This document shows, one piece after another, positions 28 through 20,939 of a stretch of 26,667 nucleotides of DNA. How positions within the stretch are numbered: position 1 is the stretch's first letter; the number at the start of each line of letters is the position of its first letter. This DNA comes from a virus: the IMG/VR virus record IMGVR_UViG_3300031857_016370, positions 1-26,667 of that record. The stretch is one strand, 5' to 3'. The translations under genes and the position numbers were made by a program. The notes under the pieces were generated by a model. That model did not search any database, was not told the origin of the DNA, and saw only the letters and a program-made list of their open reading frames with translations.

Positions 28-1350
28 ATGAAAAAATTAATATTACTTATTATTTTATTTATTCCTGTGATATCTTATTCACAGGAAGTTGACTACAGTG
101 ATACATTAGTTGATGGTATTGATGCTAGTTGGACTAATAACTTAGAAATTAATGGTGATAGTATTCAGGTTGCGGAAATGAATATAAAAGAAATTGTTAC
201 CACTTGGATTGCTCCAGAACCTGAACCTGTTGATGTTACTAAACTTTCAGAAGGTGATTTAGCAAGTATTGCTGAGGATGTTAAATTCTTGGATGAATTA
301 CCAAAGTCATATAATGATTTACCTAAAGAAGATTTGAGAAATGTTTTAGTTCAAATTGATAATAAACTTGCCAAACTTACAGCAGAACGTGATTCATTAT
401 TAGCTCAAGCGGTTAGAAATGAAGAACTTATTAAATCTAAAGAAAATACAATTAGTTCGTTAGGTAAAGAAAAAAATATTATTGGTTTGACTTTGGAAAC
501 AGGTAATTTAACTGATGAAAATGGAAACTTAATACACGAAAAAACTGATTTAGAAAAAGAAAGAGAAACTTTAAAGAAATATCTTTACACTGCTTTAGGT
601 GTTTTGGCGCTATTTGGTTTAATATTAGCAATTGTTCTTCAAAGAAAAAGAATACAAGTACAAGATGTTGAAATTGAACAACAGATTAATGACATTGCTA
701 AAAAGAATAGTTACTTAGAGCATGCCGCAAGAATCATCCGTCACGATATGCACTCCGGTATTAACACATATATGCCAAGAGGTATTACTTCACTAGAAAA
801 GAGATTAACCAATGAAGACATCCAAAGATTAAAGATTGAAGGAGCGTTAAAGATGGTTAAAGAAGGGTTGAGTCACACACAAAAAGTTTATAAGAGTGTT
901 TATGAATTTACTAATCTTGTTAAACAAAATGTTGTACTGAATAAATCTTTGGTTAACACTAAAGATTTGATATGGAAATATATTTCACCAAATTCTTATA
1001 GTACACAAGTTGAGATATCTGATTTAACTGATATGGAAGTTAACGAGACTTTATTCTGTAATGCGGTTGAAAACTTAATCAAAAATGGACTATCTTATAA
1101 TGACAGTGAAGTTAAAAAAATTAAAATATATAACGAAGAAGAGTATTTAATAGTTGAGGACAACGGTAGAGGATTCTCACAAAAAGATTTTGAAAAACAT
1201 TTAAAGAAGTATTCAAAAAAAGCAGATGTCACAGGTGACGAGAAAGGTCTTGGATTGAATATATCTGTTGCGATATTAGAAGAGCATGGTTTCAAATTAT
1301 CTTGTGAGAAAACTGAAAATGGAACCAAAATGAAAATAAAAATAAAATAA
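28..1350 (+). CDS. Membrane sensor histidine kinase
   Basis: A 440-residue protein with the parts of a two-component sensor kinase in order. Residues 1-19 form a signal peptide ending in SYSQ. Residues 20-185 would be extracytoplasmic and are coiled-coil-like at 105-185. A transmembrane segment lies at about 186-205. The cytoplasmic part has a short coiled coil, then an H-box (IIRHDMHSG) whose His239 is the probable phospho-acceptor. The HATPase_c domain shows the N-box (NAVENLIKNG, about 345-354), G1 box (VEDNGRGF, 376-383) and G2 box (EKGLGLNIS, 405-413). All catalytic motifs look intact, so it should autophosphorylate. It is the first gene of a tight operon; the receiver-domain gene starts 14 nt downstream. 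I see no known ligand domain. Sensor kinases are very rare in phages, so this is probably a captured host module. Family confident, signal unknown. Confidence 0.9.
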   Translation: MKKLILLIILFIPVISYSQEVDYSDTLVDGIDASWTNNLEINGDSIQVAEMNIKEIVTTWIAPEPEPVDVTKLSEGDLASIAEDVKFLDELPKSYNDLPKEDLRNVLVQIDNKLAKLTAERDSLLAQAVRNEELIKSKENTISSLGKEKNIIGLTLETGNLTDENGNLIHEKTDLEKERETLKKYLYTALGVLALFGLILAIVLQRKRIQVQDVEIEQQINDIAKKNSYLEHAARIIRHDMHSGINTYMPRGITSLEKRLTNEDIQRLKIEGALKMVKEGLSHTQKVYKSVYEFTNLVKQNVVLNKSLVNTKDLIWKYISPNSYSTQVEISDLTDMEVNETLFCNAVENLIKNGLSYNDSEVKKIKIYNEEEYLIVEDNGRGFSQKDFEKHLKKYSKKADVTGDEKGLGLNISVAILEEHGFKLSCEKTENGTKMKIKIK

Positions 1351-1364
1351 AGAAAGAAAAAAAC

Positions 1365-1796
1365 ATGATTGATTCAATTTTGTTAGTGGATGATGAGGAT
1401 TTATTCCACTTGGTTTTTGAGGACAGTTGCTCCTTGTTAGACATTACTTTGTCATTAAAAAGTTTAAATAGTTCTGACGAAGCGGCTAAATTATTTGCTG
1501 AGTGGCAGAAAAACCCTGACGGAAGACCTGAGTGTGTGTTTGTTGATTTGAACATTATAGGTTCATCATTTGATGGTATTGAACTTATCCGTAAGGTTAA
1601 TTTCGAGTACGGTAACCACGTGGTTATTGGAATTATTTCTTCAAGTAACGAACCTGAAGAACAAGCTAAAGCTATTCAGGCAGGTGCCCAATTCTGGATT
1701 ATCAAATCAGATGATATTGAACCAAGATTAGAAGAATTTAAGAAAGATTACGATTTATACAAAAAGAGAACAGCACCATTCAAAGTATATAAATGA
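1365..1796 (+). CDS. Single-domain response regulator (receiver only)
   Basis: A 143-residue protein consisting of one CheY-like receiver domain. It shows the acidic pocket in LLVDDEDL (Asp9, Asp10), the phospho-acceptor Asp61 in VFVDLN, the Ser92 region after beta-4 (IGIISSSN), and the conserved Lys114 in FWIIKSDD. There is no DNA-binding or enzymatic output domain; about 25 charged residues follow the receiver fold. It starts 14 nt after the histidine kinase stop and overlaps the next gene by ATGA (1793-1796), so the two are translationally coupled. The natural inference is that the upstream kinase phosphorylates it and that it acts through protein contact, perhaps with the coiled-coil membrane proteins encoded next. 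The N-terminal loop after beta-3 (IIGSSFDG) is longer than usual. Confidence 0.88.
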   Translation: MIDSILLVDDEDLFHLVFEDSCSLLDITLSLKSLNSSDEAAKLFAEWQKNPDGRPECVFVDLNIIGSSFDGIELIRKVNFEYGNHVVIGIISSSNEPEEQAKAIQAGAQFWIIKSDDIEPRLEEFKKDYDLYKKRTAPFKVYK

Positions 1797-2479
1797 TTGT
1801 TTTAAGTAAAGATACCAAAAAAGAACTAATTGAACTCCTCCAATCCAAGAACATTGGGTTGGAAGGGAACATAGTTAAACTTATTGACCCTGAGGATGAT
1901 GAGGAGTTTAAAACTTACTTGAAACAATGTGTTGATAAGGATATTTCGGCGAGGAGAAAACGTTTGGAAATGACAAAACAAGTCCAATCTCAAAATGCTG
2001 AATTAACCAAACTAAATGAGGCCAATCAGACAATGATGGAAGAACTCCAAGAGACATTAAAAAATGTTGAGGAGTCAAAACTAACATTTGAAGTTCAGAA
2101 CAGAGAATTAAATGAATGGAAACAGGAGAATTTGAGACTGACAGACGAACTCCAACAGGAGATGGTTAAATCGGAACAAGCAAGAATAACCGCTGAAAAC
2201 GCTAAAAATGAGGCGGAAAATAATTTAGATTTAATACAAAAGAAAACTCAGTTTGAGTTGATAAACAACATTGTTAGGGTTGCTCTTTATGTAATCATAG
2301 GGGTTGGAACCATAACTACTGGAATATATGTTTATTCTATGACAATAGGAATGGATACTGATATTATTGGTTCAACTTGGAGTAATATGTTTGGTATTCT
2401 GTTAACAAATAGTTTCAGTATCGTGGGAACAATACTCGGTGTGAAATATGGTGCGAGTCCTAACAAAGATGATAAATAA
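1793..2479 (+). CDS. Coiled-coil protein with two C-terminal membrane segments
   Basis: A 228-residue protein of unknown family. Residues 1-55 are a charged globular stretch. Residues 56-155 are a long heptad-rich coiled coil. Two hydrophobic segments at about 160-182 (VRVALYVIIGVGTITTGIYV) and 196-218 look like a membrane hairpin, and the tail is short and charged. The start overlaps the receiver gene stop by ATGA, so the two are made together. Context suggests a membrane-anchored scaffold or output partner of the two-component pair, but no motif proves this. No catalytic residues were recognised. Confidence 0.75.
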   Translation: MIVLSKDTKKELIELLQSKNIGLEGNIVKLIDPEDDEEFKTYLKQCVDKDISARRKRLEMTKQVQSQNAELTKLNEANQTMMEELQETLKNVEESKLTFEVQNRELNEWKQENLRLTDELQQEMVKSEQARITAENAKNEAENNLDLIQKKTQFELINNIVRVALYVIIGVGTITTGIYVYSMTIGMDTDIIGSTWSNMFGILLTNSFSIVGTILGVKYGASPNKDDK

Positions 2480-2498
2480 ACAAAAAAAAATAAAAAAA

Positions 2499-2990
2499 AT
2501 GTCAAACCTAAAAAAACTATTAATTGGTGAAAGCACTTATGTTAAAGTAGAAGATAAAAATCGTTTCTACTACATGTTACAACAAATGCAATCAAATCGT
2601 TGGAAAATTACAAGTATCGTATTATTCTTGTTTTTCTTCATTATTGCAGGTATAAATTCGGCAGTATTCTTTGGAGTATCTATTGAAGAGAACTGGAAAG
2701 AAATGTTATTAATCCTATTAGGAGCATTTGTCGGTAACTTAAATAAAGTTGTTGATTATTGGTTCAATTCAGAAGATAGAGATAAGATGTTAATTCAAAA
2801 AGTTGATGAAGAAGACGGAACATCATTATCTAATGTTGCTGAATACCCAACAACACCAAGACCACCACAAGGTCCAGTTGTCGTAGTTAATCATGTTAAA
2901 GAAGAAACTACTGTGGTTGAAGAACCAATGACTTATACTGAACCTGAAGTATATGAGGAACCAACACAAGAAGGTGAAGAAAATATCTAA
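2499..2990 (+). CDS. Small membrane protein with Pro/Glu-rich tail
   Basis: 163 residues from the ATG at 2499, which follows an A-rich leader typical of Bacteroidota starts. An in-frame ATG at 2448 would extend it back into the previous gene and adds only a Lys/Arg-rich stretch, so 2499 is preferred. It has two hydrophobic segments (about residues 34-58 and 66-82), then a cytoplasmic-type charged region, then a low-complexity tail rich in Pro, Thr, Val and Glu (PTTPRPPQGP followed by TEPEVYEEPT). Last gene of the signalling operon; a strong terminator follows 20 nt later. Function unknown. The tail could be a binding or linker segment. Confidence 0.7.
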   Translation: MSNLKKLLIGESTYVKVEDKNRFYYMLQQMQSNRWKITSIVLFLFFFIIAGINSAVFFGVSIEENWKEMLLILLGAFVGNLNKVVDYWFNSEDRDKMLIQKVDEEDGTSLSNVAEYPTTPRPPQGPVVVVNHVKEETTVVEEPMTYTEPEVYEEPTQEGEENI

Positions 2991-3010
2991 TAAATTAAGA
3001 TAACATTAAA

Positions 3011-3038
3011 AACCCCACTCTCTCAAGTGGGGTTTTTT
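3011..3038. terminator. Bidirectional intrinsic terminator
   Basis: A 9-bp stem (AACCCCACT / AGTGGGGTT) with loop CTCTCA is followed by six T on the plus strand and preceded by an A-run, so it can end both the plus-strand signalling operon and the minus-strand synthetase-like gene that stops at 3043. Confidence 0.9.
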
Positions 3039-3042
3039 ATTT

Positions 3043-3894
3043 TTAATATCCTGTAGATTCAGTTTCCCAAACTTCTTCTTTAAGTTTTTTATTTAACTCA
3101 TAAGCTCTAGCCAAACGAGTCATTCCTATTCCACCACCAAAACGTGGGAAGAAATTATGAGATAAAAACTCTCCCAATTCTTTTTCTACTCTTTCTTTAC
3201 CGAATAATTCAAACAACTTAGCAGAATAACCACCATTTTCTATCGTGTAGAAGTTATTTCTCATTTCCTCAACATTGGAACTTCTTTCTGCGGAACCTAT
3301 AGTTTCCTGACCAAACAATATTACATCAACTTTGTTGAATATTTTGTTTTTACCTTCTCTCATATTCCAAAATGGATTTGTTCTGTACGGGAAGTTCTGT
3401 AGAGATACTACTGAACCTTTCTCTTCCCACATTCTTGTTTCGTGTTCGTTTTCTAAAATTTGAACTCCACCATATTCTTCACAAACATCGTCATAATTCA
3501 CTTCAACCGGGTTATTAAACCCAAGATAATCTAAAAGTTCCGATTCAAGTTTTAACATTTCTTTCATTCCACCTTTTGATTCAAATTCAAACATTGGGAA
3601 AATCATTTCGTGACGACCTGGAATTGGGTCTTTCTCTTGTCTATAAGACGTTGAAATACAATATACACCGTCCCATTCAGGATTCTTAAGAAGTTCGTAT
3701 TCTAACCACATTTGACCCGTCTGTGGTAGTGGCCAAACCTCCCCCTGATAATTAAATGTTGTTATTGAGTGTGGATTTTCACACGCTGCCAAGATTGACA
3801 ATCTTGATTGGGTTGGAACTTCTTTAAATCCTTTGTTTTGGAAGAATGTTCTCATCTTTTGAACTAACTCGTTGTAAGTTTCTGTGTTTTTCAT
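3043..3894 (-). CDS. Class II aaRS-like protein, probable asparagine synthetase A (archaeal type)
   Basis: A 283-residue catalytic core of the AspRS/AsnRS subclass of class II synthetases without an anticodon-binding domain. Motif 2 is seen as SYRQEKD then GRHEMIFPMFEFES, and motif 3 as FPRFGGGIGMTRLARAY with the ATP-binding arginine. Stand-alone cores of this size are known as archaeal-type asparagine synthetase (aspartate + ammonia + ATP to asparagine), which evolved from AspRS; this is the best guess. The alternative is a truncated AsnRS/AspRS paralogue that aminoacylates something else. It is transcribed alone on the minus strand, convergent with the signalling operon and divergent from dnaK. 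Its leader contains a terminator-like hairpin 40 nt upstream of the start. Family confident, exact reaction less so. Confidence 0.8.
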   Translation of the reverse strand: MKNTETYNELVQKMRTFFQNKGFKEVPTQSRLSILAACENPHSITTFNYQGEVWPLPQTGQMWLEYELLKNPEWDGVYCISTSYRQEKDPIPGRHEMIFPMFEFESKGGMKEMLKLESELLDYLGFNNPVEVNYDDVCEEYGGVQILENEHETRMWEEKGSVVSLQNFPYRTNPFWNMREGKNKIFNKVDVILFGQETIGSAERSSNVEEMRNNFYTIENGGYSAKLFELFGKERVEKELGEFLSHNFFPRFGGGIGMTRLARAYELNKKLKEEVWETESTGY

Positions 3895-4158: not shown

Positions 4159-6024
4159 ATGGGAAAAATTATAGGAATTGACCTTGGAACAACTAATTCA
4201 TGTGTTGCCGTAATGGAAGGTAACGAACCAGTTGTGATTACAAACAGTGAAGGAAAAAGAACCACCCCTTCAATTGTGGGTTTCTTAAATGGTGGTGAAA
4301 GAAAGGTTGGCGACCCGGCTAAACGTCAGGCGGTTACTAATCCTGATAAAACTATTTCATCTATCAAGCGTTTCATGGGAAGTAGCTTTGATGAAAGTAA
4401 AAGTGAAATAAAACGTGTACCTTACAAAGTAGTTAAGGGTGATGGTGGGACTCCTCGTGTTGAAATTGAAGACAGAAAGTATTCTCCACAAGAAATTTCT
4501 GCGATGGTTCTTCAGAAGATGAAACAAACTGCTGAAGATTATTTGGGAAGTGAAGTTACTGAAGCAGTTATCACGGTTCCGGCTTACTTTAACGACGCTC
4601 AACGTCAAGCTACGAAAGAAGCTGGCGAGATTGCGGGATTAAAAGTGATGAGAATTGTTAACGAACCAACTGCCGCAGCACTTGCTTACGGTCTTGACAA
4701 ACAATCTAAAGACATGAAGATTGTTGTGTTTGACTGTGGTGGTGGAACTCATGACGTATCAGTTTTGGAGTTGGGTGATGGCGTATTTGAAGTATTATCA
4801 ACTGATGGTGATACACATCTTGGTGGTGATGACTTTGACCAAGCAATCATTGACTGGTTGGTAACTGAGTTCAAAGATGAAAACGGAATTGACTTGACGA
4901 AAGATGCGATGGCTCTTCAACGTCTTCGTGAAGGTGCTGAGAAGGCGAAGATTGAATTATCTTCTTCACCATCTACGGAGATTAACTTACCATACATTAT
5001 GCCTGTTGACGGTATACCTAAACACTTGGTAAGAACATTGTCTAAGGCTAAATTTGAACAACTTGTTGATAGTTTGGTTGAAAGAACAATCGCTCCTTGT
5101 AAGTCGGCTTTGAAAAATGCGGGACTTAAGACAACTGATATTGATGAAATCATTTTGGTTGGTGGAACAACACGTATTCCGGCAATTCAAGAAGCGGTTA
5201 AGAAGTTCTTTGGTAAGGACCCATCAAAAGGTGTTAATCCTGATGAGGTTGTTGCTCTTGGGGCAGCTATCCAAGCAGGAGTATTGGCAGGTGATGTTAA
5301 AGATGTGTTATTGTTAGACGTTACACCACTATCACTTGGTATTGAAACAATGGGTGGAGTATTCACAAAATTAATTGAAGCAAATACCACAATCCCAACC
5401 AAGAAATCACAAGTATTCTCAACCGCAGTTGATAACCAACCGTCTGTTGAAATTCACGTATTACAAGGTGAGAGAGCAATGGCTAAAGATAACCGAACCA
5501 TTGGACGATTCCACTTGGACGGTATTCCACCATCAATGAGAGGGGTTCCACAAATTGAAGTTACTTTTGATATTGATGCGAATGGTATTATTAATGTATC
5601 GGCAGTTGACAAAGGAACTGATAAGAAACAAACTATTAGAATTGAGGCTTCTTCAGGACTTTCAAAAGAAGAAATTGAAAACATGAGAAAAGAGGCTGAG
5701 ATGAATGCAGAATCTGATAAAAAAGCGAAAGAAGATGCTGAAACAATAAATCAGGCGGATTCACTAATCTTTTCAATTGAAAAAACATTAAAAGATTTAG
5801 ATGATAAACTAACTGAAACTCAAAAATCAGATATCAATACCGCACTTGATGAATTGAAAAAGTCACATTCTGAAAGAAATGTTGAAGATATTAAGGTGAA
5901 TATGGATAAATTGAATTCAACATTCCAAGAAATAAGTTCAACACTTTATGGTCAAGGTGATGAAAACATGACTGAACAAGATTCTGAAGTATCTGATGTT
6001 GATTTTGAAGAAGTTAAGAAATAA
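4159..6024 (+). CDS. dnaK: Hsp70 chaperone DnaK
   Basis: A 621-residue, full-length DnaK. The nucleotide-binding domain (about 1-385) has the first phosphate motif [11 protein letters not shown] at 5-15, a second phosphate motif reading [13 protein letters not shown], and the adenosine motif [13 protein letters not shown]. The interdomain linker is [13 protein letters not shown]. The substrate-binding domain and helical lid follow, and the tail ends in the acidic FEEVKK typical of DnaK, which recruits partners such as GrpE- and DnaJ-assisted clients. In most DnaKs the second phosphate motif is DLGGGTFD; here Leu is Cys and Phe is His, a small oddity. GC content and codon use are more host-like than in the neighbours. 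No dnaJ or grpE is nearby, so host co-chaperones are presumably used. Start chosen by homology; leader is A-rich without a Shine-Dalgarno site. Confidence 0.97.
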
Positions 6025-6271: not shown

Positions 6272-6433
6272 ATGAAAATAGTTACAAGAGTTTACGAAGA
6301 TGAAGAAACAATATCAACATGGACTTATGATTTAGATAAGTTCAAGAACGGACCAATTTCTGTTGATATCAAATACAAAAACGAACCTGTAAAAAAACGT
6401 TCAGGTAGAGAAAAAAACCCAAATAAAAAATGA
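6272..6433 (+). CDS. Small charged hypothetical protein
   Basis: A 53-residue ORF in a tight run: it starts directly after the preceding stop and its own stop overlaps the HAD gene start as ATGA (6430-6433). The N-terminal part looks like a short beta-rich fold (MKIVTRVYEDEETISTWTY). The last 15 residues are basic (VKKRSGREKNPNKK). Junction structure and codon use support it as real; no family recognised. Confidence 0.6.
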   Translation: MKIVTRVYEDEETISTWTYDLDKFKNGPISVDIKYKNEPVKKRSGREKNPNKK

Positions 6434-7002
6434 AAACAATATTTTTAGACCACGATGGAGTTATCTGTCTGTCCACTAATTGGGGGTCACGATTTAAAAA
6501 ACAAAAAAAATATAGAAAAAAATTGAGTCAATCAGTAATGACAATGCCTCTTGATGCTCGTTTTGATAACTTTGATAAGAAATCAATCAAGGTATTGAAT
6601 GAAATCTTGGAACAGACCGGCGCAGAAATCGTTGTATCTTCTGATTGGAAAGTTTGGTGTTCAGTTGAGGAAATGGGTGATTACTATGAGAAACAAGGTA
6701 TCATCAAACGACCAATTGATTTCACAACAAATGTGATTGATGGTGAAAAAGTTACATGGTACCGAAATTGGGATTTGGAAGGAACAAGAAGTATACAAAT
6801 CCAAGAATGGTTAAAAGAACATCCTGAGGTAACACATTGGGTGGCGATTGATGATTTGGATATGGGCAAGACCGGACTACATTACGGAATGGAATTTGAA
6901 CACGAATGGGGGTTGGATAACTTTGTCTTAACACCTTTGAACAATGAAGGTATTAAACAAGTAGGGGTTAAAGAAAAGGTTTTATCTTTCTTGGAAGGAT
7001 AA
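6430..7002 (+). CDS. HAD-like hydrolase (phosphatase or RNA-repair type)
   Basis: A 190-residue HAD-superfamily protein. Motif I is FLDHDGVI with the nucleophile Asp7 and the acid/base Asp9; motif II is IVVSSDWK; the acidic motif IV is VAIDDLDMG. It lacks a clear cap domain and resembles the HAD type found in 'Swiss Army Knife' RNA-repair proteins and in stand-alone phage proteins. In T4-like phages related phosphatases heal tRNA or nucleotide 3' ends; that role is only inferred here. It is coupled to the preceding small gene through ATGA. Catalytic residues look intact. Confidence 0.75.
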   Translation: MKTIFLDHDGVICLSTNWGSRFKKQKKYRKKLSQSVMTMPLDARFDNFDKKSIKVLNEILEQTGAEIVVSSDWKVWCSVEEMGDYYEKQGIIKRPIDFTTNVIDGEKVTWYRNWDLEGTRSIQIQEWLKEHPEVTHWVAIDDLDMGKTGLHYGMEFEHEWGLDNFVLTPLNNEGIKQVGVKEKVLSFLEG

Positions 7003-7800: not shown

Positions 7801-7820
7801 AACCCCATTTGGGGTTTTTT
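7801..7820. terminator. Bidirectional terminator
   Basis: AACCCC ATTT GGGGTT stem-loop with six T after it and an A-run before it, between convergent genes ending at 7796 (plus) and 7819 (minus). Confidence 0.85.
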
Positions 7821-8130
7821 AATTTATTTCAGGTTGGTCTTCATCAGTTGTTGGTAAATTCTCTTCTTTCTTTTCTTTTTGAATTTGATTAATTATATAT
7901 CCTGATACTGCAAATTCAACACCAGTCCACATTATTAAATCAGTTATTGACATAGCTGAATGTTTTTCCAATAGGAAAAAAATCATACCCCATTGGGCAA
8001 TAATAAAAGCAACACCTGATTCAATTCTTTTTTTTGAGAAAAATGAAGGTTTACTTGAATACATTTTACCTAATTCAGAAATAACCCATTTAATATTTTC
8101 CCACCCAAAGAAAAATTTCTTGTTTTCCAT
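7819..8130 (-). CDS. Two-span membrane protein, holin-like in size
   Basis: A 103-residue protein with two hydrophobic segments (about 38-56, SGVAFIIAQWGMIFFLLEK, and 61-82, ITDLIMWTGVEFAVSGYII) joined by a short loop and followed by a charged, acidic tail. The pattern KKRIESGVAF before the first span recalls small phage membrane proteins with holin topology, but no endolysin is adjacent, so a holin role is unproven. It lies 18 nt downstream of the small basic gene at 8149-8277 and is probably in the same minus-strand transcript. Confidence 0.65.
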   Translation of the reverse strand: MENKKFFFGWENIKWVISELGKMYSSKPSFFSKKRIESGVAFIIAQWGMIFFLLEKHSAMSITDLIMWTGVEFAVSGYIINQIQKEKKEENLPTTDEDQPEIN

Positions 8131-9023: not shown

Positions 9024-9242
9024 ATGGAGATAGTACACAGAACTTGGAAAAAAATATTTTTAGAAAATATTTCCGTAAAACTTTTAATGTTAGGAATGTT
9101 CTTCAATCCACTTGGGTTCGATGCTGTTCAGTATTGGCTTATTTCACTAACAGGGAGTTTGTGGTACGCAAATCTAACTTTGTATTTTATTTCGGGTTTT
9201 TTCTTTGGGTTATCTTTTTTATTCAAAAAATATTCTAAATGA
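9024..9242 (+). CDS. Small two-span membrane protein
   Basis: A 72-residue protein with two hydrophobic segments: residues 20-40 (LLMLGMFFNPLGFDAVQYWL) and 44-66 (ending YFISGFFFGLSFLF), with a Lys-rich C-terminus. Two long overlapping frames exist here. This one is chosen because it forms a regular membrane hairpin and its stop overlaps the PPK2 start as ATGA; the frame from 9017 has no such coupling. The first 19 residues are less regular and the true start may be a later Met. Function unknown; co-expressed with PPK2. Confidence 0.6.
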   Translation: MEIVHRTWKKIFLENISVKLLMLGMFFNPLGFDAVQYWLISLTGSLWYANLTLYFISGFFFGLSFLFKKYSK

Positions 9243-10306
9243 GAAATTTAAATAGACACTTATTAAGTGAAGAAAAGACAAAATCAGAATCACATATTAA
9301 ACGTATTGTGGACATTCTTAGATATAGTGATGTATACAGTGCTCAATTACAAAAAGATTTAAATCAGGTAATTGATTACTCAAAAAACCAAATTGTTGAT
9401 TTCAATTTGTTAGAAAGAGGTATAATGAAAGTCCTTAAAATGAAAGGGGATAAGAGTAAAAATATCCTTGAATTTTTTAAAAAATTATTAAAGTCACTTA
9501 AAAAACGAGAAAAGAATATTATTTTACAGGAACCTGAAAAAGATGATTTACCACAGTTAGAACCACAAGAACCTTCAGTAATTCCAAAGAAAGTTTATAG
9601 AGAAGAACTTTATTATTTACAAGTTGAGTTATTAAAATTACAAGAATGGTTAAATCAAACAGGTAAAACTGTGATTATTGTTTTTGAAGGTAGGGACTCA
9701 GCGGGTAAAGGTTCAACAATTAAAAAATTTGTTGAATATATGAACCCAAGATTTTATAATATAATTGCTTTAGGTATACCATCACCCGAAGAAAGAAAAA
9801 ATTGGTGGGATAGATATAGAAGTCAAATACAATCTGGTAAAGTTAATTTATTCGATAGAAGTTGGTATAACAGAGGATTAATAGAACCTGTTATGGGTTA
9901 TGGTTCGGCTGAAGAATATGAGGATTTTATGGATAATGTTGAAGATTTTGAACAGGGATTAGTTAAAGACGGTGATTACCTTTTCAAACTGTGGTTTTCA
10001 ATAGATAAAGTAACTCAAGCTAAACGATTTGAGATGAGACAACAATCTCCTTTAAAATATTGGAAATATTCACCTAATGATGAAAAGATGCAAGATTTGT
10101 GGGATAGATTTACTGAATTTAAAGAAAAACTATTTGATAAGACATCAACAGTTAATCATCCTTGGGTGATTATTGATTCAAACGATAAAAGAATTTCAGG
10201 TTTAAATGCGATTAGATATGTTTTACAAAACATACCATATAAAAATAAAAATGAAGAAATTTTAGATAAAAGCTTTCCTGAAGCATTAACTGTATTAAAA
10301 CCGTAA
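9239..10306 (+). CDS. ppk2: Polyphosphate kinase 2 family protein with N-terminal extension
   Basis: A 355-residue protein. Residues 118-345 are a PPK2 domain, which moves phosphate between polyphosphate and nucleotides. Visible are the Walker A loop FEGRDSAGKGST (149-160), the Walker B-like VNLFDRSWYNRG (202-213, Asp206), the lid arginines around 183-195, and the C-terminal HPWVIIDSNDK. The first 115 residues are not part of PPK2: a leader MRNLNRHLLSEE with L-S-E at 9-11, a helical region, and a Pro/Glu-rich linker. The leader matches the putative prohead-protease motif of neighbouring proteins, so the enzyme may be packaged in the head. Start fixed by the ATGA overlap with the preceding gene. 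PPK2 is known in bacteria and archaea and is unusual in phages. Family confident; substrate preference (NDP or NMP) not readable. Confidence 0.92.
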   Translation: MRNLNRHLLSEEKTKSESHIKRIVDILRYSDVYSAQLQKDLNQVIDYSKNQIVDFNLLERGIMKVLKMKGDKSKNILEFFKKLLKSLKKREKNIILQEPEKDDLPQLEPQEPSVIPKKVYREELYYLQVELLKLQEWLNQTGKTVIIVFEGRDSAGKGSTIKKFVEYMNPRFYNIIALGIPSPEERKNWWDRYRSQIQSGKVNLFDRSWYNRGLIEPVMGYGSAEEYEDFMDNVEDFEQGLVKDGDYLFKLWFSIDKVTQAKRFEMRQQSPLKYWKYSPNDEKMQDLWDRFTEFKEKLFDKTSTVNHPWVIIDSNDKRISGLNAIRYVLQNIPYKNKNEEILDKSFPEALTVLKP

Positions 10307-20315: not shown

Positions 20316-20939
20316 ATGAAAACACTTATCAAATACGCTTTAATCATCTGTGGTTTAATCTTCATTGTAAACAGAGGTTCGGATTTTTTAGGTGGATTAA
20401 CTGACATCAATCCCAAAGATGTTAAAGATAAAATTGATGGTTTATTAAGTGCAAACCAAGAAAGTTCATCTGTTGGAAAAATTGGGAGTGGTACTATTCA
20501 CATTGTTGGTTTGGGTGAATATAATCAATCAGATTTGGTTAAAGCTAAAAAATACGTTGAGGAGTTCTATGGTTTTAGTTGTGTTGTTGATGGTGGTGTA
20601 CCGACTAAACCCTCAATGTATATTGAGAACTCAATCACTTTGAATGTTACACAGTGTCTTGGTGAACTTAGTGTACCTGGTCAAAAAACAATCTATGTGA
20701 CAAAAGAATCCCTATATTCAAAAGAATGGGGTATGTTGAGAGGTATGACACACATGAGAGGTAATACTGTGGTTGTTAAAGGTGGAGAACACTTACAAGA
20801 AACTGTTATTCACGAACTTGGTCACACTTTAGGATTGGGTCACTGTGATAATAAACAATGTATCATGGCAGTTCATAATGACGCAGAAGATACAGGACAA
20901 TTTTGTTCAAAATGTAAGAATCAATTAAAAAACCAATAA
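20316..20939 (+). CDS. Archaemetzincin-type zinc metalloprotease, membrane-anchored or exported
   Basis: A 207-residue protein. The zinc motif HELGHTLGLGHC (166-177), followed by CIM (182-184) and a CSKC pair (197-200), reproduces the archaemetzincin (M54) signature HExxHxxGxxHC-x4-CxM...CxxC; the spacing from the Met to the last CxxC (12) is shorter than in typical members. The catalytic Glu167 and three zinc His are present. Residues 5-18 are hydrophobic (IKYALIICGLIFIV), a signal anchor that would place the protease outside the cytoplasm. Archaemetzincins are found mostly in archaea, vertebrates and scattered bacteria. It heads a small operon with the next acidic gene, from a TAnnTTTG promoter. 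Substrate unknown. Confidence 0.88.
   Translation: MKTLIKYALIICGLIFIVNRGSDFLGGLTDINPKDVKDKIDGLLSANQESSSVGKIGSGTIHIVGLGEYNQSDLVKAKKYVEEFYGFSCVVDGGVPTKPSMYIENSITLNVTQCLGELSVPGQKTIYVTKESLYSKEWGMLRGMTHMRGNTVVVKGGEHLQETVIHELGHTLGLGHCDNKQCIMAVHNDAEDTGQFCSKCKNQLKNQ

Follow-up and report, generated by a model that had tools for sequence, protein, structure and literature searches.

A two-component cassette of uncultured large phages and its possible role in host lysis

Bacterial two-component systems have conserved His and Asp sites, N and G boxes, and adjacent kinase and receiver genes. All of these recur in the locus described here, which lies at one end of a linear 26.7-kb IMG/VR record with 14 tRNA genes (IMGVR_UViG_3300031857_016370; the whole stretch of 26,667 nucleotides was analyzed and is called the window), and the model of its kinase matches solved histidine kinases. 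The phage family differs from the bacterial systems in having a DHp motif of its own (RHDMHSGIN) that is unmatched by Pfam HisKA, a receiver without an output domain, a fixed membrane partner (CC) and a linkage to an endolysin gene. In the DivJ/PleC-DivK-DivL system of Caulobacter, a single-domain regulator acts by contact on a kinase-like protein. Of the known systems it comes closest in logic to the one proposed here, with a receiver-only regulator in both cases. The similarity extends to a Bacteroidetes MAG, in which a kinase with the N-terminal domain of CC follows the receiver, as a likeness of logic for which no homology to DivL is claimed; the presumed phage output, in contrast, is a protein with two transmembrane (TM) segments and not a kinase.

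Lysis timing is mostly viewed as a holin clock, and T4-type lysis inhibition is the classic case driven by a sensor. The latter relies on direct periplasmic binding between antiholin and holin (antiholins RI and RIII, holin T; PMC11413866, PMC8385771). In function it is the closest analogue of the present system, the likeness being the proposed purpose of setting the lysis time by a sensed signal; phosphotransfer is proposed here whereas there is none in T4. The two are compared by function only, and no homologue of T, RI or RIII was identified in the phages studied here.

Phage genes of related kinds have been described separately. The temperate, 54-kb phage phiCDHM1 carries agr genes of the quorum-sensing type (AgrD, AgrB, and AgrC), and no response regulator was found in that phage (PMC3901668). 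It thus shares a histidine kinase gene with the phages studied here but lacks the regulator that they possess. The receiver-like cRec of jumbo phages is described as never linked to a histidine kinase (PMC7824862, PMC9503650) and is defined by a position beside NAD/ADP-ribose or RNA-repair genes (PMC7824862). Our receiver likewise represents a receiver-like domain in large phages, but it falls outside cRec since almost every locus has a kinase next to it. ‘Two-component’ genes are also among those listed in large inventories of viral auxiliary genes (PMC9636769). In the open-licence literature, neither a phage-encoded histidine kinase nor a phage-encoded two-component pair turned up under those phrases, nor did a paper joining lysis timing, holin and histidine kinase or one tying a phage two-component pair to lysis; none of these terms occurs in the huge-phage paper PMC7162821.

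The cassette in the window

The features of the window that concern the cassette are the following.

28..1350, plus strand: sensor histidine kinase, 440 aa (ORF, HATPase_c, orthologue alignment, structure model)
1365..1796, plus strand: receiver-only response regulator, 143 aa (PF00072), with phospho-acceptor Asp61 (codon 1545-1547)
1793..2479, plus strand: CC, 228 aa, proposed output protein, with a conserved N-terminal domain (about residues 1-60), a long coiled coil and two C-terminal TM helices
2499..2990, plus strand: M4, 163 aa, two-TM protein with an acidic proline-rich tail (conserved Met start, relatives)
3008..3037, both strands: terminator-like hairpin with a T-run, between M4 and an AsnRS-like gene
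7819..8130, minus strand: c18, 103 aa, small membrane protein; in L055, L056, L066, L071, and L163 a relative lies immediately after CC

The kinase and receiver genes are 14 nt apart (1351-1364), the receiver and CC genes overlap by ATGA (1793-1796) and a single terminator follows, all as given in the preliminary description. The ‘complete’ operon of that description cannot be maintained. The kinase ORF begins 27 nt inside the contig edge, leaving the operon start beyond view, and in close relatives a further kinase and a coiled-coil protein that is secreted are encoded 5' of the window-type kinase. Locus L004 shows the downstream order of the window (M4, then the minus-strand AsnRS-like gene, then DnaK) and, upstream, a divergent endolysin gene, a PAS-type kinase, the secreted coiled-coil protein and then the window-type kinase. 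Given the cut in the contig and the extra upstream genes of relatives, the operon of the window probably begins farther upstream and is likely incomplete here.

The four genes are real, intact and phage-borne. Bacterial origin of the contig, or a kinase and regulator that are not conserved, had been named beforehand as grounds for abandoning the idea, and the evidence speaks against both: pairwise dN/dS against relatives ranges from 0.03 to 0.13 (kinase 0.09-0.11, receiver 0.03-0.04, CC 0.09-0.13, M4 0.05-0.08), in line with purifying selection, and records of relatives carry terminase and sheath genes. Recurrence of the gene order in 90 distinct receiver loci, together with these dN/dS values, marks the arrangement as more than a chance one.

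The kinase consists of a signal peptide, a helix-bearing periplasmic stretch, one TM segment (186-204), a DHp domain with His239 and a HATPase_c domain (PF02518, 4e-11) with the N box from residue 349, G1 from 378 and G2 from 407. The Pfam HisKA profile gave no match to the DHp domain. The initial reading of an intact kinase is confirmed by the alignment of 17 orthologues, in which His239 (codon 742-744), Asp240 and key residues of the N and G boxes are invariant, and solved histidine kinases, HK853 and CpxA chains among them, match the structure model (mean pLDDT 67). Judged by its HATPase_c and DHp features, the protein is a sensor histidine kinase, with phosphorylation as a predicted activity. 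Kinases of relatives have the core RHDMHSGIN in common and differ in their front parts, which comprise a signal peptide plus periplasmic stretch (the type of the window), two TM segments plus PAS, GAF plus PAS, or soluble forms; many loci encode two kinases. The sensor is therefore not in every case the envelope sensor originally proposed, as relatives carry PAS/GAF modules. Because the kinases differ in front while receiver and CC persist, the latter two are the fixed core and the sensor the variable part. This swapping of sensors (periplasmic, PAS, GAF) over a constant receiver and CC is a new point.

The receiver matches PF00072 alone (3.4e-8, above the cut-off) and is bare, without an output domain, as had been noted. 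Residues D9, D10, D61, S92, and K114 are invariant among 18 receivers, so that by alignment the protein has the acidic pair, the acceptor Asp, the Thr/Ser and the Lys of a receiver.

Both of the membrane proteins described earlier were confirmed, one of them with a coiled coil; each has two TM segments (M4 at a relaxed cut-off). The model of CC (mean pLDDT 82, pTM 0.32) contains a long helix (37-185), a second helix (190-220) and the two TM segments; a fold search against the PDB gave nothing below E 5. Across phages, the first 60 residues of CC are conserved, the length of its coiled coil varies and its second TM segment is near-invariant. The start of M4 was set at 2499 by a conserved Met instead of the mechanical ORF start at 2448. 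A common origin of CC and M4 as membrane parts was considered and is unsupported (hhalign E 0.054, probability 1%).

All phage loci encode a CC with two TM segments, and there are none in its counterpart in the Bacteroidetes MAG (locus L100). There, the gene directly after the receiver, which is 65% identical to ours, opens with the start domain of CC (E 3e-19, 39% identity over 125 aligned positions), which is followed by HisKA and HATPase_c in place of the TM helices. Since the domain is fused to a kinase instead of TM helices, this one fusion suggests, in its simplest reading, that the receiver is read by the N-terminal part of CC, with the remainder as the output. The earlier proposal of a membrane partner as contact output thus finds its best candidate in CC. 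A putative receiver-reading domain with two outputs, a bacterial kinase and a phage membrane hairpin, makes the mechanism directly testable.

Distribution among phages and bacteria

Two-component pairs had been described as very rarely reported in phages; this one is not rare in uncultured large phages. Receiver relatives are encoded by 399 viral contigs of up to 322 kb (80 of the 399 were kept), and the scan for CC yielded at least 558 contigs with relatives. The database searches proposed at the outset thus found many relatives in uncultured phages and further ones on Bacteroidota contigs but not in deposited phages, as none of the four proteins has a relative in 50,697 deposited (cultured-phage) records at 1e-5. 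We collected 90 distinct receiver loci, picked for carrying both receiver and CC; CC comes next and a kinase before, save in a few loci where, as far as checked, the contig ends. Only two CC loci are without a receiver, both starting less than 40 nt from a contig end. The conserved part of the four-gene order is kinase-receiver-CC; only some of the relatives also have M4, at times placed between CC and the endolysin.

Sixteen long cassette records (85-322 kb) were inspected. A terminase is encoded in 11 and a tail sheath in six of them, which identifies the carriers as large tailed phages. In 15 of these records one receiver, and no more, passes PF00072 (the receiver of the sixteenth was found by tblastn), and all but two of their HATPase_c matches lie inside the cassette. 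On the evidence of these contigs, the system is common in uncultured large phages.

Across 84,980 bacterial and archaeal species, a scan based on just two peptide patterns, which divergent bacterial copies could escape, returned three loci (L098, L099, and L100), of which two are clearly bacterial. L098 is a 16.8-kb MAG contig (CAJQGZ010000002.1) with kinase-receiver-CC and phage-like genes, among them, by our reading, a PhoH-type ATPase; with the cassette beside such genes, this may be phage DNA that was binned into a MAG. L099 encodes a PAS kinase and a receiver, without a CC match, on a 967-kb Bacteroidetes contig. The CC domain, the kinase motif and the receiver also served to probe genome samples (395 from a single class, 395 from a single phylum, and 196 from a single family), which gave only the seed genomes. 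The receiver tree, whose bootstrap had not settled, places both Bacteroidota copies outside those of the phages.

Endolysin linkage and proposed function

We clustered all neighboring ORFs of 50 loci with more than 5 kb on each side (49 viral loci and the L100 MAG). The commonest gene outside kinase, receiver and CC encodes an endolysin (PG_binding_1 and GH19; phrog_181 endolysin, 1.7e-68), which flanks the cassette in 30 of the 49 phage loci. In nine loci it follows CC immediately, with 10-23 nt between the two genes; in eight it is the second to fourth gene after CC; and in eleven, of which ten have it divergent, it is the nearest gene on the upstream side of the kinases. The position right beside the endolysin is the usual holin slot. 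An amidase-type endolysin lies upstream of the kinase in L145, and c11, found in ten loci, is distantly endolysin-like (phrog_33083, 3e-9). Strong phrog_181 matches occur in 17 records, 13 of which have the match within 6 kb of the receiver versus 2.0 expected; the resulting P of about 2e-10 ignores shared ancestry and is hence inflated, yet the several arrangements argue for repeated association despite this ancestry. The endolysin is 12-58 kb away in the other four, including three relatives of the type of the window (L013, L015, and L017). Other recurrent neighbors of the cassette are DnaK, a metallophosphoesterase and c4, so that part of the link may reflect general gene order. The correlations of divergence (rho 0.47 for receiver-CC, 0.64 for receiver-DnaK, and 0.41 for receiver-endolysin) are uninformative, as receiver-CC is not clearly above the other two.

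Exportless endolysins need a holin, and these endolysins, with neither a TM segment nor a signal-like start, would need one as well. In some loci (for instance L052, L077, L088, and L168) CC is, the kinase aside, the sole two-TM protein among the nearest genes. Profiles for the endolysin, the spanin-like genes, c11, c17, and c22 found no match in the window, and that for c18 did. Proteins 61-68% identical to c18 are encoded by metagenomic phages of 635 and 642 kb, and c18 is a possible lysis partner. It was rejected as a proven holin, as it matches no family and, in the 635-kb record LR745206, is separated from the endolysin by about 38 kb. Two overlapping small genes (c33 and c34) found in four loci resemble a spanin pair by topology only.

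On balance, we consider it probable that this phage-owned two-component system controls host lysis. With the cassette of most relatives beside the endolysin or in one gene string with it, the phage may choose the time of host burst by sensing a signal. On sensing a signal from the envelope or from metabolism, one or two kinases would phosphorylate Asp61, and the phosphorylated receiver would bind the N-terminal domain of CC in the cytoplasm. A change in the coiled coil would then open or restrain a membrane lesion through which the endolysin, having no export signal, could escape. The holin or holin regulator would be either CC or a partner with two TM segments, for instance M4. That CC is the holin itself is a tentative suggestion: it has two TM segments and adjoins the endolysin in nine loci, yet it has a cytoplasmic coil of 150 residues and matched no holin family in profile searches. 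We are similarly hesitant about a phosphorelay-gated holin, in which the phospho-receiver on the CC N-terminus would directly trigger or hold the lesion and the lysis time would be set via swappable sensors. If lysis control is correct, these phages apply bacterial-style sensing with interchangeable inputs to their most consequential decision. Among the three roles first guessed for the system, lysis timing is the one backed by the endolysin linkage; nothing beyond plausibility was found for a superinfection block or host rewiring.

The system might instead steer another process, such as envelope remodeling, superinfection exclusion or metabolism, with CC as a receiver scaffold at the membrane and the endolysin a neighbor by gene order. 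The varied PAS/GAF sensors would fit metabolic sensing, the recurrence of DnaK, metallophosphoesterase and c4 would fit a general gene order, and the endolysin is distant in some relatives; we nevertheless think this possible rather than likely, because the endolysin is the commonest neighbor, in several arrangements, and nine times sits in the same apparent operon right after CC. Feeding of host signaling by the phage receiver, which would pass phosphate from or to host kinases or bind a host kinase as in the Bacteroidota fusion, is improbable in our view. It could draw on that MAG kinase, whose CC-type N-terminal domain follows a 65%-identical receiver, and on single-domain regulators such as DivK that act on other kinases, but such bacterial systems look very rare, and in every locus long enough to show it the phage has a kinase, receiver and CC of its own side by side. 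That the contig is misassembled or misclassified bacterial DNA, or the cassette a passenger in decay, is by now largely refuted and highly improbable: two-component systems are ordinary in bacteria and a chromosomal relative exists on the 967-kb contig, but against this stand the hundreds of viral contigs, the terminase and sheath genes on cassette records, the low dN/dS and the separation of phage receivers from the Bacteroidota copies in the tree.

Further genes near the cassette

Several other genes of the window were annotated. A shortened class II AsnRS-like protein (3043-3894, minus strand) is about 50% identical to the ‘tRNA ligase’ of Prochlorococcus phages P-SSM2/P-SSM7 and, to a similar degree, to proteins of metagenomic phage records of 484-735 kb. 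The window further encodes a full-length DnaK/Hsp70 (4159-6024, plus strand; 867 bits), which recurs beside the cassette in relatives, a HAD-type phosphatase domain of a kind known from RNA repair proteins (6430-7002, plus strand; PF18143, 5e-22), a polyphosphate kinase 2 (9239-10306, plus strand; PPK2, 9e-70), here on a phage contig, and a zinc-metallopeptidase-like protein (20316-20939, plus strand; PF07998, 1e-9). In the 322-kb phage (L059), an ORF resembling NusG by eye adjoins the kinase cassette (3077-3622, plus strand). A GIY-YIG/NUMOD3 homing-endonuclease gene is lodged between kinase and receiver in L004 (7330-8052, plus strand), and a similar ORF occupies the same place in L007.
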